DNA from: Mucilaginibacter rubeus
Lineage (GTDB): Bacteria > Bacteroidota > Bacteroidia > Sphingobacteriales > Sphingobacteriaceae
Assembly: GCF_014643835.1 (NCBI RefSeq)
Contig: NZ_BMKD01000002.1
Span: 310,001-374,000, forward strand
Direction: 5' to 3'
Length of the DNA: 64,000 nt
In this document: in pieces, positions 6,775-11,514 of the stretch
How the letters are laid out: each line of letters opens with the position of its first letter
Position numbering within the stretch: the stretch's first letter is position 1
Notes under the pieces: generated by a model
What the model was told of the DNA's origin: nothing
Database searches by the model: none
The model's input: only the letters and a program-made list of their open reading frames with translations
Position numbers and translations under genes: made by a program

Positions 6775-9360
6775 TTAAAATCTAAACCCAATAGATATAT
6801 AAGGCAACGATCCTTCTTTTGAAAAGCCCATTACGGCTTCAATCAGCACCAATTGCGCTGGAATAATATACAAACCGCCGCCATATCCATCGTGCCACCT
6901 GTCGGATAATTCGCCGGGGACCCATACCCTGCCTACATCATTAAAGCCGATCAAACCAAATGAGCCGGGAAGCAGGTACGATGTGAAATCCATAACCTTT
7001 AAACGTAACTCGAGGTTATTATAAGCGATTGTTTTACCGGTAAACCTATTGGTATGAAATCCCCTGAAATTTTGCGAGCCGCCCAGTTTCATCTGTTGAA
7101 AATATGCTGCATTACCTATCGTAGTACCTAATCCCGTGCGGTTAGCTATTACCAATATCGAGTCCCTGTCGGGATTTAGATAGAAACTAAACTCAGATAA
7201 TACCTGTCCGTAAGTATTATGACTACCTGAACCACCGCCGCTAAAGCCGCTCACGGTGGTTGTCCATAAAATGCCTTGTGTAGGGATGATCAGTTTATTC
7301 CGTGTATCAACCGTTGCGTTGGCTGTTAAGCCGCCGTAGACCTTAGTGCCAAATACCTTCTCATCCGGAAACGTCGCATTGTAGCCATTCAAAAATCTTT
7401 CAGTATTGTTTGATGCCTTGCTGTTATAAAACTGCCCTGTAACGCCGGCGCTTACGTGCAGGTTTCCAAAACTGCGGTGCAGGGAAACGTCGCCGGTAAC
7501 ATAATCATAGCGGTTACGATAGTACGAGATCTTCCTGTCGTCCTTATTTTCAAAAACGGTGTTATTCCCAATTCCGAAAAAATTGCTCAGGTTACTTGGC
7601 CCGCGCGAAAGCAGGTTGATCTTCAGGTCGTTTTCACCGATGGCTTTTTTCCAGTCGGCGGTATAGGTAAACAAAAATGATTTACGCCCCAGTGAATAAT
7701 TGGTCAAAAATTCTTCGCGGAAAGCATATGGTTCCTTACGAAACCCGTGCCGCTCGTATGAGAAACCTCCAATCAACAAAATGCCAATATCATTACTGTA
7801 ATTAGCCAGGATAATAGGCTCAAACCTGTCGAACTTAAAGGCAGTTTTATCATAACTATTTACCGCCGTGTCTGTTGATGTACGGTTTTTAGCCAGCGAT
7901 GAAGGAGGAAGTACATTTTTTTGATCCGAACGGTCATAAATATAGGTTTTGCCTTTATTATTTAAACTGCTGTCAACTGCAAAGGTGTCCATCCCCTCCC
8001 CACCTATCATCCGCACAGTTATGGGTGATGGCGTTGAGCCCGTCACCTTAAATAAATCATCGCCATCAAAACCATACATCCTGATCTCTTTGGTAACATC
8101 GGGTTTAAAGGTACGCTGGTAGGTAACCTTATCAACGCTGCCGTCTTTCTTTATCTTATTTATAGTAAGCGTGATGTCACCATTAGTTTCATGAGCCACA
8201 GTAAATTTGTCCGTTTTATCACTCGCTGGTACATCGACATATATGGAGATGAATTTATAATATTCGAGTGCCTGTTTTTGCAGGATGTTACGCCTCGCTA
8301 TCATTTTGCTGATGATCTCAGGTCCCGAAAGTTTGTAGATGGTATCGGGCATTAAATGCACCGCTTTTTTGATCAGGGCATCGGTCAGTTTGCTTTGCAC
8401 ATAGGCTATCTGCTCTTTCCAGTCATCTTCGCTCAACTGGTTCAGGAAATAGCGGTCGAAATAACGGGCATTGAAATTCCATCCATTGATATCCCTGATC
8501 TCGTCGCTGTAACCCTGAAATTTTGATTTAAGCCATTGGTGCGCTACTATCCAGGGCAACACACCCGAAGTTTTATAGTACACCTGGTCACGATCGCGTG
8601 GAACAGGTTCATAAACGGTTTCATGTTTTCCGTCGATCTTTTCCCAGCGCCATTGGTCTTCATGCCTGTCCCAATCGCCTAAAAGCATATCCAACAGGCG
8701 GGCGCGCAGCACAATCTTCTGGTCAACCCGGTTATCGTTGTCATCCTGTAGTTTACGCTGTACTTTTTCGGTGTTATCAGTTTTTTCGGCGTCGAGCGGT
8801 TCACGTTCTTCAAATAAAAAAACCTGGTTAGCAAAATCCTTTTGATACTCGCCAAAAGCAGGATCATCAGGAATATAAACAATTTTAGGGTTTGAATGCG
8901 GAACGCCTAATGCTTCGGCCAGCGGGGGTACCGTAAGCGCCGAAAAGGGATGAGCGGCCGATACCTGGTCTTGCAGAATATCTTTAGCTACCGTAGGCCT
9001 TAAATCAACAGGCAGACCTTTTTCGGGATATTTTTGAATAGTACGCAATACCCATTGCTGCCCCGTAGGATCCTGCAATCGCAATGATTTGGTTTGCTTG
9101 CCCCCGCCCCTTTGCAATATTTTAAGACCACCTTTTTCTGTGGTAAGATGGAATACAGGCAGTGTGACAGGTGCAGTCCAAAGTTTACGGTAATTATCGC
9201 CTAAAAAAAATTGGTGGGTACCGCTTACATTATTATAAGATGGTTCGATGGCCAGTTTAATACTATCGGCAGGGGTTTGAGCATATGAAATATTGCCGGC
9301 TAAACAAATGCCAGCCGTTAAAAAAAGAGATAAAGCGTTGAACAGTTTTTTGCCGCCCAT
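6775..9360 (-). CDS. kinase-like domain plus Omp85-type outer-membrane barrel
   Basis: An 861-aa exported protein (ATG at 9360; signal peptide ending near SYA-Q). Residues ~60-270 show kinase-like features: WVLRTIQK (possible nucleotide Lys), LAEALGVPH, then LLDMLLGDWDRHEDQW (~221-237) and PRDRDQ (~254-259). These look like the catalytic loop and metal site of FAM20/PI4K/HipA-type atypical kinases. The last ~350 residues are barrel-like, with GGSQNFRGFHTNRF and a terminal aromatic (GFRF), as in BamA/TamA-family proteins. It is usually annotated only as a BamA/TamA-like protein. The barrel call is good; the kinase relation is my inference. A TTG seven codons upstream is a less likely start. 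Confidence 0.75.
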   Translation of the reverse strand: MGGKKLFNALSLFLTAGICLAGNISYAQTPADSIKLAIEPSYNNVSGTHQFFLGDNYRKLWTAPVTLPVFHLTTEKGGLKILQRGGGKQTKSLRLQDPTGQQWVLRTIQKYPEKGLPVDLRPTVAKDILQDQVSAAHPFSALTVPPLAEALGVPHSNPKIVYIPDDPAFGEYQKDFANQVFLFEEREPLDAEKTDNTEKVQRKLQDDNDNRVDQKIVLRARLLDMLLGDWDRHEDQWRWEKIDGKHETVYEPVPRDRDQVYYKTSGVLPWIVAHQWLKSKFQGYSDEIRDINGWNFNARYFDRYFLNQLSEDDWKEQIAYVQSKLTDALIKKAVHLMPDTIYKLSGPEIISKMIARRNILQKQALEYYKFISIYVDVPASDKTDKFTVAHETNGDITLTINKIKKDGSVDKVTYQRTFKPDVTKEIRMYGFDGDDLFKVTGSTPSPITVRMIGGEGMDTFAVDSSLNNKGKTYIYDRSDQKNVLPPSSLAKNRTSTDTAVNSYDKTAFKFDRFEPIILANYSNDIGILLIGGFSYERHGFRKEPYAFREEFLTNYSLGRKSFLFTYTADWKKAIGENDLKINLLSRGPSNLSNFFGIGNNTVFENKDDRKISYYRNRYDYVTGDVSLHRSFGNLHVSAGVTGQFYNSKASNNTERFLNGYNATFPDEKVFGTKVYGGLTANATVDTRNKLIIPTQGILWTTTVSGFSGGGSGSHNTYGQVLSEFSFYLNPDRDSILVIANRTGLGTTIGNAAYFQQMKLGGSQNFRGFHTNRFTGKTIAYNNLELRLKVMDFTSYLLPGSFGLIGFNDVGRVWVPGELSDRWHDGYGGGLYIIPAQLVLIEAVMGFSKEGSLPYISIGFRF

Positions 9361-9478
9361 GAGGTTTTGTAAGTAATGCAACGTAGAATAAATGCATATT
9401 ACAAAATAGTTTTAATTATACACAGGGAAATTACTTTAAAAAGCATGGTGAGCAGCTGTTTAACTTTAACTGTTTTAA

Positions 9479-9768: not shown

Positions 9769-10467
9769 CTATCTGCCCTGATTAATCAACGCGTGCATTA
9801 CCTGGTCTTTAAGCTGCCTGCTGATCGGCACCTCAAATGTGCCTATATGCAACATATTTCCTTCTATCGATGTGATCTTATTATTTGCAACTATGTATGA
9901 TTTATGCGTTTGCATGAATTTACGCGGAGGTAGCTTTTCGGCAAAGGCCCGCAGGGTACTGTGGGTTATGATCTTACGCGCCGGGGTATAAACCTCTACA
10001 TAGTTTTCCATGCCTTTAATGAACAACACTTCGTCAAAAATTATCTTCTCGAGCTTACCATTGCTTTTAACAAACAGATAATCTACACTATCTGTATTGT
10101 TCCTTAAATCAAAGTAATCCTTAGCTTTAAAGGCTGCCTTCATAAAACGCTCAAAAGGTATAGGTTTAAGGAGATAGTCGAGCACATCCAGGTCGAAACC
10201 ATCAGTAGCGTATTCTTTAAACGCGGTAGTAAAGATCACTTTTGGCGGGTTAGGCAGCGAACGAATAAATTCAACGCCGGTTAAATGTGGCATCTGGATA
10301 TCCAGGAACAGCAGGTCTACAGGTTGCTGCGCTAACAACGCTCCTAATTCCATAGCGTCTTCACATTGTGCTTTCAGGTCAAAAAAACCGGCTTTTTTAA
10401 CATAGCCTTCCAGGCCCTTACGGGCAAAGGGTTCATCGTCGGTAATAATGCAGCTAATTAACGCCAT
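9769..10467 (-). CDS. LytTR-family response regulator
   Basis: This is a two-component regulator of the LytR/AlgR class, 232 aa. The N-terminal receiver domain has the acidic pair DDE near 10-12, the phosphorylation site Asp56 (LFLDIQMP), and the conserved Lys in LLKPI (~107). The C-terminal LytTR DNA-binding domain spans ~135-230 (FIKGMENYVEVY, MQTHKSYIVN-like). It starts 3 bases after the sensor kinase gene and must be its partner. The target genes are unknown; the upstream acyltransferase is one candidate. Confidence 0.93.
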   Translation of the reverse strand: MALISCIITDDEPFARKGLEGYVKKAGFFDLKAQCEDAMELGALLAQQPVDLLFLDIQMPHLTGVEFIRSLPNPPKVIFTTAFKEYATDGFDLDVLDYLLKPIPFERFMKAAFKAKDYFDLRNNTDSVDYLFVKSNGKLEKIIFDEVLFIKGMENYVEVYTPARKIITHSTLRAFAEKLPPRKFMQTHKSYIVANNKITSIEGNMLHIGTFEVPISRQLKDQVMHALINQGR

Positions 10468-10470
10468 CTT

Positions 10471-11514
10471 TTATATATTCAATTCAAGTACTGCTGTGTA
10501 GTGATTTTCTTCGCGGCCCGCGATTAGTTTATGTTTATCCGGATAAAGCAATTGCAATCTGCGGCTTAAGTTTTCCAAACCAATACCGCTGTAATTATCG
10601 GGCGCTTTCATATTCGGCGGCACATCGTTATAAACTTTAAAAACAAATTCATGGTCAATAATGCGCCCTTCAATGGCTATTTTATATTCACCGCCTATAT
10701 ACTTAAAAGCGTTTTCAACCAGTGGCAGCAAAAGCAGCGGATAGATGAGCTGATCCGTTAAACATCCTTCAAAATTAACATTGAGCTGCATTTTGCTGCT
10801 CGCCCTGATCTGCTGCAGCCGGATATAATTTTCAAGATATTCCAACTCCTGTTTTACCGGCACCTGTTGATGCTGATCATAAAGTTGATAACGTAGTAAA
10901 CTTGATAGCAACTCGGTACTTTTTTTAGCACCCGGAACATCATCATCCATCTGGAAATAAATAGTATTCAGGGCATTAAATAAAAAATGCGGATGGTATT
11001 GGGCTTTTAGAAACTTCAGCTCAGTTTCCAGCTGATCGTTGGTGAGCTTTTCCAGTTGCATCTTATTATTTACATAAGCCTTCAGCCAGGTACTGCTGCG
11101 GGCGATGCCATAATAAACAATAGCGTACAAAGTGGGGATCATATTAATATCGGCCACGTCTGCCCAGGGCATCAGCTCATCTATGCCCTGGCTTACGTGC
11201 AGGGCCATGACCATCGGAACAAATACAACGTTCACTAATATCAAATTTGCTCCCACCAATATGGCCAACTCGCGCACTACGGCCCGGTAGGATAACTGTA
11301 CAGTCTGGTGCCTGTCATAGTAAGTAAAAAGCCGTTCAAAAATATAGATTGCCAAATAGCCCACCAATATTGAACAGGCCATTTCAATGCCATTAACATA
11401 AAAATCCCTTTCCCAAAAATGCTGACCAATGTCAGTATCATGTAACAGCCTTATGGTAAAATATACCAATAAGCCATACAATGCCGGAAAAATGTACTTC
11501 CTGAAAAATTTCAT
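10471..11514 (-). CDS. LytS-type sensor histidine kinase
   Basis: A 347-aa membrane sensor kinase of the His_kinase (PF06580) type. Four hydrophobic segments lie at about 8-24, 44-60, 83-105 and 125-140. A short coiled stretch follows, then QYHPHFLFNALN with the probable phospho-accepting His176. The ATPase part has LLLPLVENAFKY (N box) and GIGLENLSRRL (G box). It has no separate periplasmic sensor domain, so it may sense membrane state or a small lipophilic ligand. It lies 9 bases after the acyltransferase and 3 bases before the regulator. Confidence 0.92.
   Translation of the reverse strand: MKFFRKYIFPALYGLLVYFTIRLLHDTDIGQHFWERDFYVNGIEMACSILVGYLAIYIFERLFTYYDRHQTVQLSYRAVVRELAILVGANLILVNVVFVPMVMALHVSQGIDELMPWADVADINMIPTLYAIVYYGIARSSTWLKAYVNNKMQLEKLTNDQLETELKFLKAQYHPHFLFNALNTIYFQMDDDVPGAKKSTELLSSLLRYQLYDQHQQVPVKQELEYLENYIRLQQIRASSKMQLNVNFEGCLTDQLIYPLLLLPLVENAFKYIGGEYKIAIEGRIIDHEFVFKVYNDVPPNMKAPDNYSGIGLENLSRRLQLLYPDKHKLIAGREENHYTAVLELNI

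Follow-up and report, generated by a model that had tools for sequence, protein, structure and literature searches.

A predicted kinase-like fold on an outer-membrane barrel protein of Mucilaginibacter rubeus

Background

Few bacterial kinases work beyond the cytoplasm. Descriptions of CotH make it an atypical kinase and a distant relative of Fam20C (excerpt of PMC7821199), and LepB was grouped with FAM20 and CotH in a survey of Legionella (excerpt of PMC9758233). Among outer-membrane barrels, Omp85 proteins that have no POTRA domain are recognised, and the PF00149 domain of the 'Metallo' Omp85 subfamily was taken as a metalloprotease, the word 'kinase' being absent from the main text (Heinz and Lithgow 2014, PMC4104836, in excerpt). 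Here we analyze one gene in a 64,000-nucleotide stretch of the soil bacterium Mucilaginibacter rubeus (contig NZ_BMKD01000002.1, positions 310,001 to 374,000; hereafter the window). Prediction gives the front half of its protein the fold of an unusual kinase and makes the back half an outer-membrane barrel. A first-pass annotation, made from the sequence alone, had regarded this architecture as undescribed. Likewise, we found no description of a kinase fold combined with Omp85 in a search of the literature other than subscription papers and preprints, which papers using few of the search terms could escape. The pairing would place phosphorylation in a compartment thought to be free of ATP, and it prompts one to ask about the donor and the substrate used there.

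Results

Predicted fold of the two halves

The AlphaFold2 model of the kinase-like domain (KD) is confident (pLDDT 91.1, pTM 0.90) and has the two-lobed fold of kinases, as seen from its Foldseek and VIA matches to the PDB. The best HipA and HipT rows of the Foldseek search reach a probability of 1.00. These matches support the kinase-like reading of the first-pass annotation, which had staked that reading on the presence of such a fold. Its expectation of HipA-like hits held, while FAM20 entries, which it had also named, are absent from the best 50 rows of Foldseek and of the VIA list, an absence that excludes nothing. Among the best 50 Foldseek rows, several carry the titles of pre-40S ribosomes or of uncharacterised proteins and name no kinase, and a few VIA titles leave the molecule unnamed. 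In the model, the glycines 92-94 close strand 87-92 and precede strand 99-103, which corresponds to the Gly-rich loop of the protein-kinase-like (PKL) superfamily. For the ATP-binding lysine that the superfamily has in its third strand, the candidates in the model and the alignment are R113, which lies within the strand, and K117, four residues further on. We are almost certain that KD has a kinase fold.

The C-terminal half forms a 16-stranded barrel with an RGF motif, as in the Omp85 superfamily, and its match to the Omp85 profile falls below the curated cut-off. The barrel match rests on the VIA structure comparison, which places it close to TamA and BamA, in agreement with the Omp85-type barrel initially proposed. 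In the full model, the linker between the two halves (residues ~381-482) is made of strands, with no helix of at least four residues after the last helix of KD. This region thus lacks the N-terminal POTRA domains of the Omp85 superfamily.

Conservation of the putative active site

We gathered 48 KD rows through whole-protein homology. K117, D138, D231, W237 and D263 are invariant in all of them, R113, D236, D238, R239 and D265 are retained in 47 and H240 in 46. A further 80 loci (L053-L132) came from a pattern search over WDRH and PRDRD, so that their invariance at these motifs is by construction, and they were excluded from a second set of 100 rows. A few places appear twice in this second set, and 18 of its loci (L223-L240) had been picked because they are divergent, standalone or clustered. 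Compared with the window protein at 19 sites, 70 rows are identical, 13 have one change, six have two to six changes and 11 have at least eight. The set is therefore split into two populations, one keeping the sites and one degenerate.

The 11 degenerate copies still score as KD (two only partly) and carry barrels, and have lost many putative active-site residues spread across 170 residues of sequence. This loss resembles that of enzymes turning into pseudoenzymes. The sites lost are not identical in all copies: three of them (L230, L231 and L238) retain K117 and D238 and have lost H240 and the DRD motif. Single sites are aligned with less certainty in degenerate rows. Separately, three adjacent KD genes with no barrel lie at L234:2129-7148, one of them with both D238 and H240 changed.

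Sequence relationship to known kinases

The catalytic aspartate of the DRH motif and the metal-binding aspartate of the PKL superfamily correspond to D238 and D263/D265. This assignment comes from conservation and profile alignment, not from superposition, and it favours the catalytic and metal-binding roles that the first-pass annotation had given to the DRH and DRD residues. In profile alignments, the KD motifs are in register with those of CtkA, HipA_2 and CotH, PRDRD not exactly so with CtkA. The HipA_2 alignment lines up the catalytic loop, and the HipA_C alignment covers a region of KD free of motifs. Two standalone KD proteins (L034 and L035) read DRHEGN, that is DRHxxN, with Asn at D238+5.

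The hhalign probabilities against KD are 5.5% for CotH, 1.5% for HipA_2 and 0.4% for HipA_C. As controls, the metallophosphoesterase scores 24.4, equal to the score of HipA_2, and the SdiA-regulated family 24.9. In a set of 52 control families, two score at least 24.4 and none reaches the 30.3 of CotH; the best control E-value is 0.0082, compared with 0.007 for CotH. Searches with the single window protein returned no Pfam family and no PDB sequence match. KD gives no match to the Pfam model of CotH (PF08757) and none above cut-off to those of HipA_C (PF07804) and HipA_2 (PF20613). HipA_C contacts only one of 55 KD members (E 0.23), and one member reaches Pfam LepB_N at E 0.019. With a broader KD profile (A4, 55 rows), CtkA still tops the PDB list at a mere E of 0.41, and the kinase link is therefore unproven from sequence alone.

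Gene layout

The gene occupies a minus-strand frame (6775..9381) whose program-set start is a TTG, giving 868 amino acids. The ATG at 9360 (861 amino acids), where the first-pass annotation also ended its coordinates, is the likelier start, because a clean signal peptide begins at that codon; residue numbers follow the 868-residue frame. The order of signal peptide, motif-bearing domain and barrel-like end agrees with the layout initially noted (Table 1). Both halves of the gene are under strong purifying selection, and the closest named relative among the matches listed is from Mucilaginibacter gossypiicola (97% over KD).

Table 1. Features of the KD-barrel gene, in window positions
Feature	Position	Strand	Evidence
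Whole gene from the likely ATG, 861 aa	6775..9360	-	Open reading frame and sequence reading
Signal peptide, residues 8-34	9280..9360	-	Sequence reading; homologues' N-termini alike
Kinase-like domain KD, residues 38-385	8227..9270	-	AlphaFold2 model and PDB structure matches
Gly-rich loop RGGGKQT (residues 91-97), flanked by two N-lobe strands	9091..9111	-	Conservation and model
Strand WVLRTIQK; its invariant K117 or near-invariant R113 may play the part of the ATP lysine	9031..9054	-	Conservation and model
Catalytic-loop motif DWDRH, with D238 as putative catalytic base	8662..8676	-	Conservation and profile alignments
PRDRD, candidate metal-binding motif, D263/D265	8587..8601	-	Conservation and profile alignment
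All-beta linker domain, residues ~381-482	7936..8241	-	Secondary structure of full model
Omp85 barrel of 16 strands (residues 519-866), containing NFRGFH and GFNDVGR	6784..7827	-	Full model and structure match

Family architectures and distribution

The KD family is large, being present in 113 of 296 sampled Bacteroidota genomes (61 of 139 genera), and has no Pfam model above cut-off. A scan of GTDB contigs returned at least 595 relatives, 80 of which were kept; by record name they are from Bacteroidota, with one metagenome-assembled genome from Chlorobiota. A phage collection gave no KD-family match. Six plasmid records matched, four of them annotated as hypothetical protein, one with no feature there and one, matching at the barrel end only, as a DUF5982 protein.

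Four architectures occur: KD and barrel (~860 amino acids); metallophosphoesterase, KD and barrel (~1200-1300); KD alone after a hydrophobic N-terminus (~400-430); and KD with the beta domain and no barrel (~500-570). PF00149 is above cut-off in three of the four long relatives scanned (L020, L025 and L043) and below it in L031. The window gene, a short form, has no match to PF00149 or to any other Pfam model. The 80 pattern-found loci comprise 43 short forms, 35 long forms with the N-terminal metallophosphoesterase and two that are cut or split. Signal peptides or lipoprotein-like starts are found among the relatives, and at least four long forms have a lipoprotein-like N-terminus. One KD-barrel gene is in pieces, a decayed copy (L036:4114-6663), and another has KD and barrel as two neighbouring frames (L078:5911-8493). 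An apparent PPK1-metallophosphoesterase-KD-barrel fusion of 1855 amino acids (L031:12501-18068) was set aside: its junction contains a Met and a stretch resembling a signal peptide, which makes a lost stop likelier than a working fusion.

Linkage to a separate PPK1 clade

We examined the flanks of the 80 loci up to 6 kb from KD, some contigs ending earlier. A gene of the HD-PycTM type lies near 26 of 35 long-form loci and 7 of 43 short-form loci; the corresponding counts are 20 and 9 for an SdiA-regulated/phytase-like propeller, 12 and 13 for a protein of ~787 amino acids, and 9 and 6 for PPK1. The HD-PycTM proteins, such as those at L097:2614-3855 and L031:11177-12511, combine an HD domain with the PycTM domain of Pycsar effectors. 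The ~787-residue protein (for example L040:7456-9801; its cluster occurs in 29 loci) has a faint GAF_2 match below cut-off (E 0.005) and no NCBIfam match.

We surveyed 101 genomes of the same bacterial family, 63 with KD and 38 without. For the distance between KD and PPK1, only the 88 full-length KD genes were counted, with barrel-only, domain-only and fragment rows left out, and the PPK1 rows, again minus fragments, came from the KD-bearing genomes and a few others. A PPK1 is no more than 6 kb away from 37 of the 88, in 36 of the 63 KD genomes; these include 22 of the 27 KD genes of the ~1.2 k long type, as classed by frame length. At least two PPK1 above cut-off occur in 40 of 63 KD genomes and in none of the 38 others (P-value 5e-12, Fisher test, uncorrected for kinship or genome size). 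The genomes with no KD are often small, and a second PPK1 above cut-off is absent from all 19 with at least 3 Mb.

We built a tree from 38 hand-chosen PPK1 sequences, of which 19 (L259-L274 and L276-L278) group as a clade separate from the housekeeping PPK1 (support 100/100). For 17 of these, KD is no more than 6 kb away; L274 and L260 belong to the clade though they are further from KD. L275, which entered the tree as adjacent though it is not, groups with the housekeeping clade. Three His and several Arg positions, which we take to be the catalytic residues, are invariant in all 38 sequences, and because of this the linked PPK1 looks catalytic.

In the window, a LytTR response regulator and a histidine kinase lie directly upstream of the KD-barrel gene (9769-11514, minus strand), and a ribulose-phosphate epimerase gene lies downstream. 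Proteins of a 347-residue cluster, presumed to represent this histidine kinase, are found again in L032, L053 and L069.

Discussion

Proposed function

The explanation that we favour, and hold to be reasonably probable as a whole, is an exported atypical kinase that is anchored in the outer membrane and acts in the periplasm on an envelope molecule. Sec would export the protein, and its C-terminal Omp85 barrel would insert in the outer membrane. The N-terminal domain, an atypical kinase of the kind of phosphatidylinositol 4-kinase type II, CotH, CtkA and HipA, would then face the periplasm, a placement that we consider very likely. There it would pass a phosphoryl group to a protein, lipid or glycan of the envelope; that KD is an active phosphotransferase is likely, if somewhat less so than its placement. 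Many relatives, at 35 of 80 loci, carry an N-terminal metallophosphoesterase on the same chain, which may remove or recycle the phosphate; kinase and phosphatase would then be a writer and an eraser sharing one anchor. Because many members adjoin PPK1, part of the family may act in a phosphate or polyphosphate pathway. We give even chances to such a functional tie, at least in the PPK1-linked subfamily, and it would provide the separate PPK1 clade with a functional context.

Several observations weigh against an active periplasmic kinase. The sequence links between KD and kinases are weak, no Pfam or NCBIfam kinase model reaches its cut-off, and the Foldseek TM-scores are low (0.3-0.44, root-mean-square deviation 7-10 Å). 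R113 and K117 compete for the role of the ATP-lysine, and the window protein has Q243 at D238+5, where kinases carry the Asn of the PKL superfamily. D238 itself is changed in three otherwise mostly intact rows (to G in L046, to S in one copy each of L234 and L235), D236 in L048 and H240 in L040. The periplasm is held to have no ATP. The PPK1 within 6 kb of KD in genome G030 (L248) belongs to the housekeeping clade. The window gene has none of the cluster neighbours within 64 kb, and the polyphosphate link is therefore confined to part of the family.

Alternative explanations

The glutamine at D+5, the general view of a periplasm with no ATP, and the 11 copies that still carry barrels after losing many putative active-site residues would all suit a pseudokinase. 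In this case, KD would keep its fold and serve as a ligand-binding or scaffold module gating the barrel, in the place of the POTRA domains of BamA and TamA. However, the retention of all 19 sites in 70 of 100 rows goes beyond the need of a scaffold, and we consider a pseudokinase unlikely.

Somewhat less likely still, KD may be another transferase, or its donor may be polyphosphate rather than ATP, supplied by the linked PPK1. SelO, for example, reportedly transfers AMP. The PPK1 linkage and the apparently catalytic His and Arg positions of the linked PPK1 favour this possibility. However, the N-termini of two linked PPK1 show no export signal, so that their product would be cytoplasmic, and the window copy is not linked to PPK1. 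Polyphosphate as the donor of KD is speculative and improbable. We are equally doubtful of a wider scheme of periplasmic phosphorylation at the inner face of the Bacteroidota outer membrane, in which an Omp85-anchored kinase, often with a phosphatase in the same chain, would receive polyphosphate or a derived donor from a dedicated second PPK1.

The protein could also be a conventional Omp85 assembly factor whose N-terminal domain is not related to kinases and resembles them by a coincidence of fold. This reading would fit the closeness of the barrel to TamA and BamA, the weak sequence scores and the low TM-scores, and is very improbable given the kinase fold of the model.

Comparison with known systems

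The putative Omp85-anchored kinase differs from each of its closest counterparts. CtkA of Helicobacter pylori (3akj, 3akk and 3akl) shares 11-14% identity with KD and has no barrel. The CotH kinase of Bacillus cereus (5jda) also has no barrel, and KD misses the Pfam CotH model. Phosphatidylinositol 4-kinase type II, again with no barrel, is a eukaryotic lipid kinase. HipA and HipT resemble KD in fold (best rows at Foldseek probability 1.00), and HipA_2 (PF20613) in the aligned catalytic loop; unlike the KD protein, they are not exported. On the barrel side, the 'Metallo' Omp85 subfamily, as it appears in the excerpt of PMC4104836, combines PF00149 with an Omp85 barrel like the long KD form, and the short form of the window differs from it in having no PF00149 match. 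Finally, TamA and BamA carry POTRA domains where the window protein has KD and the beta domain.
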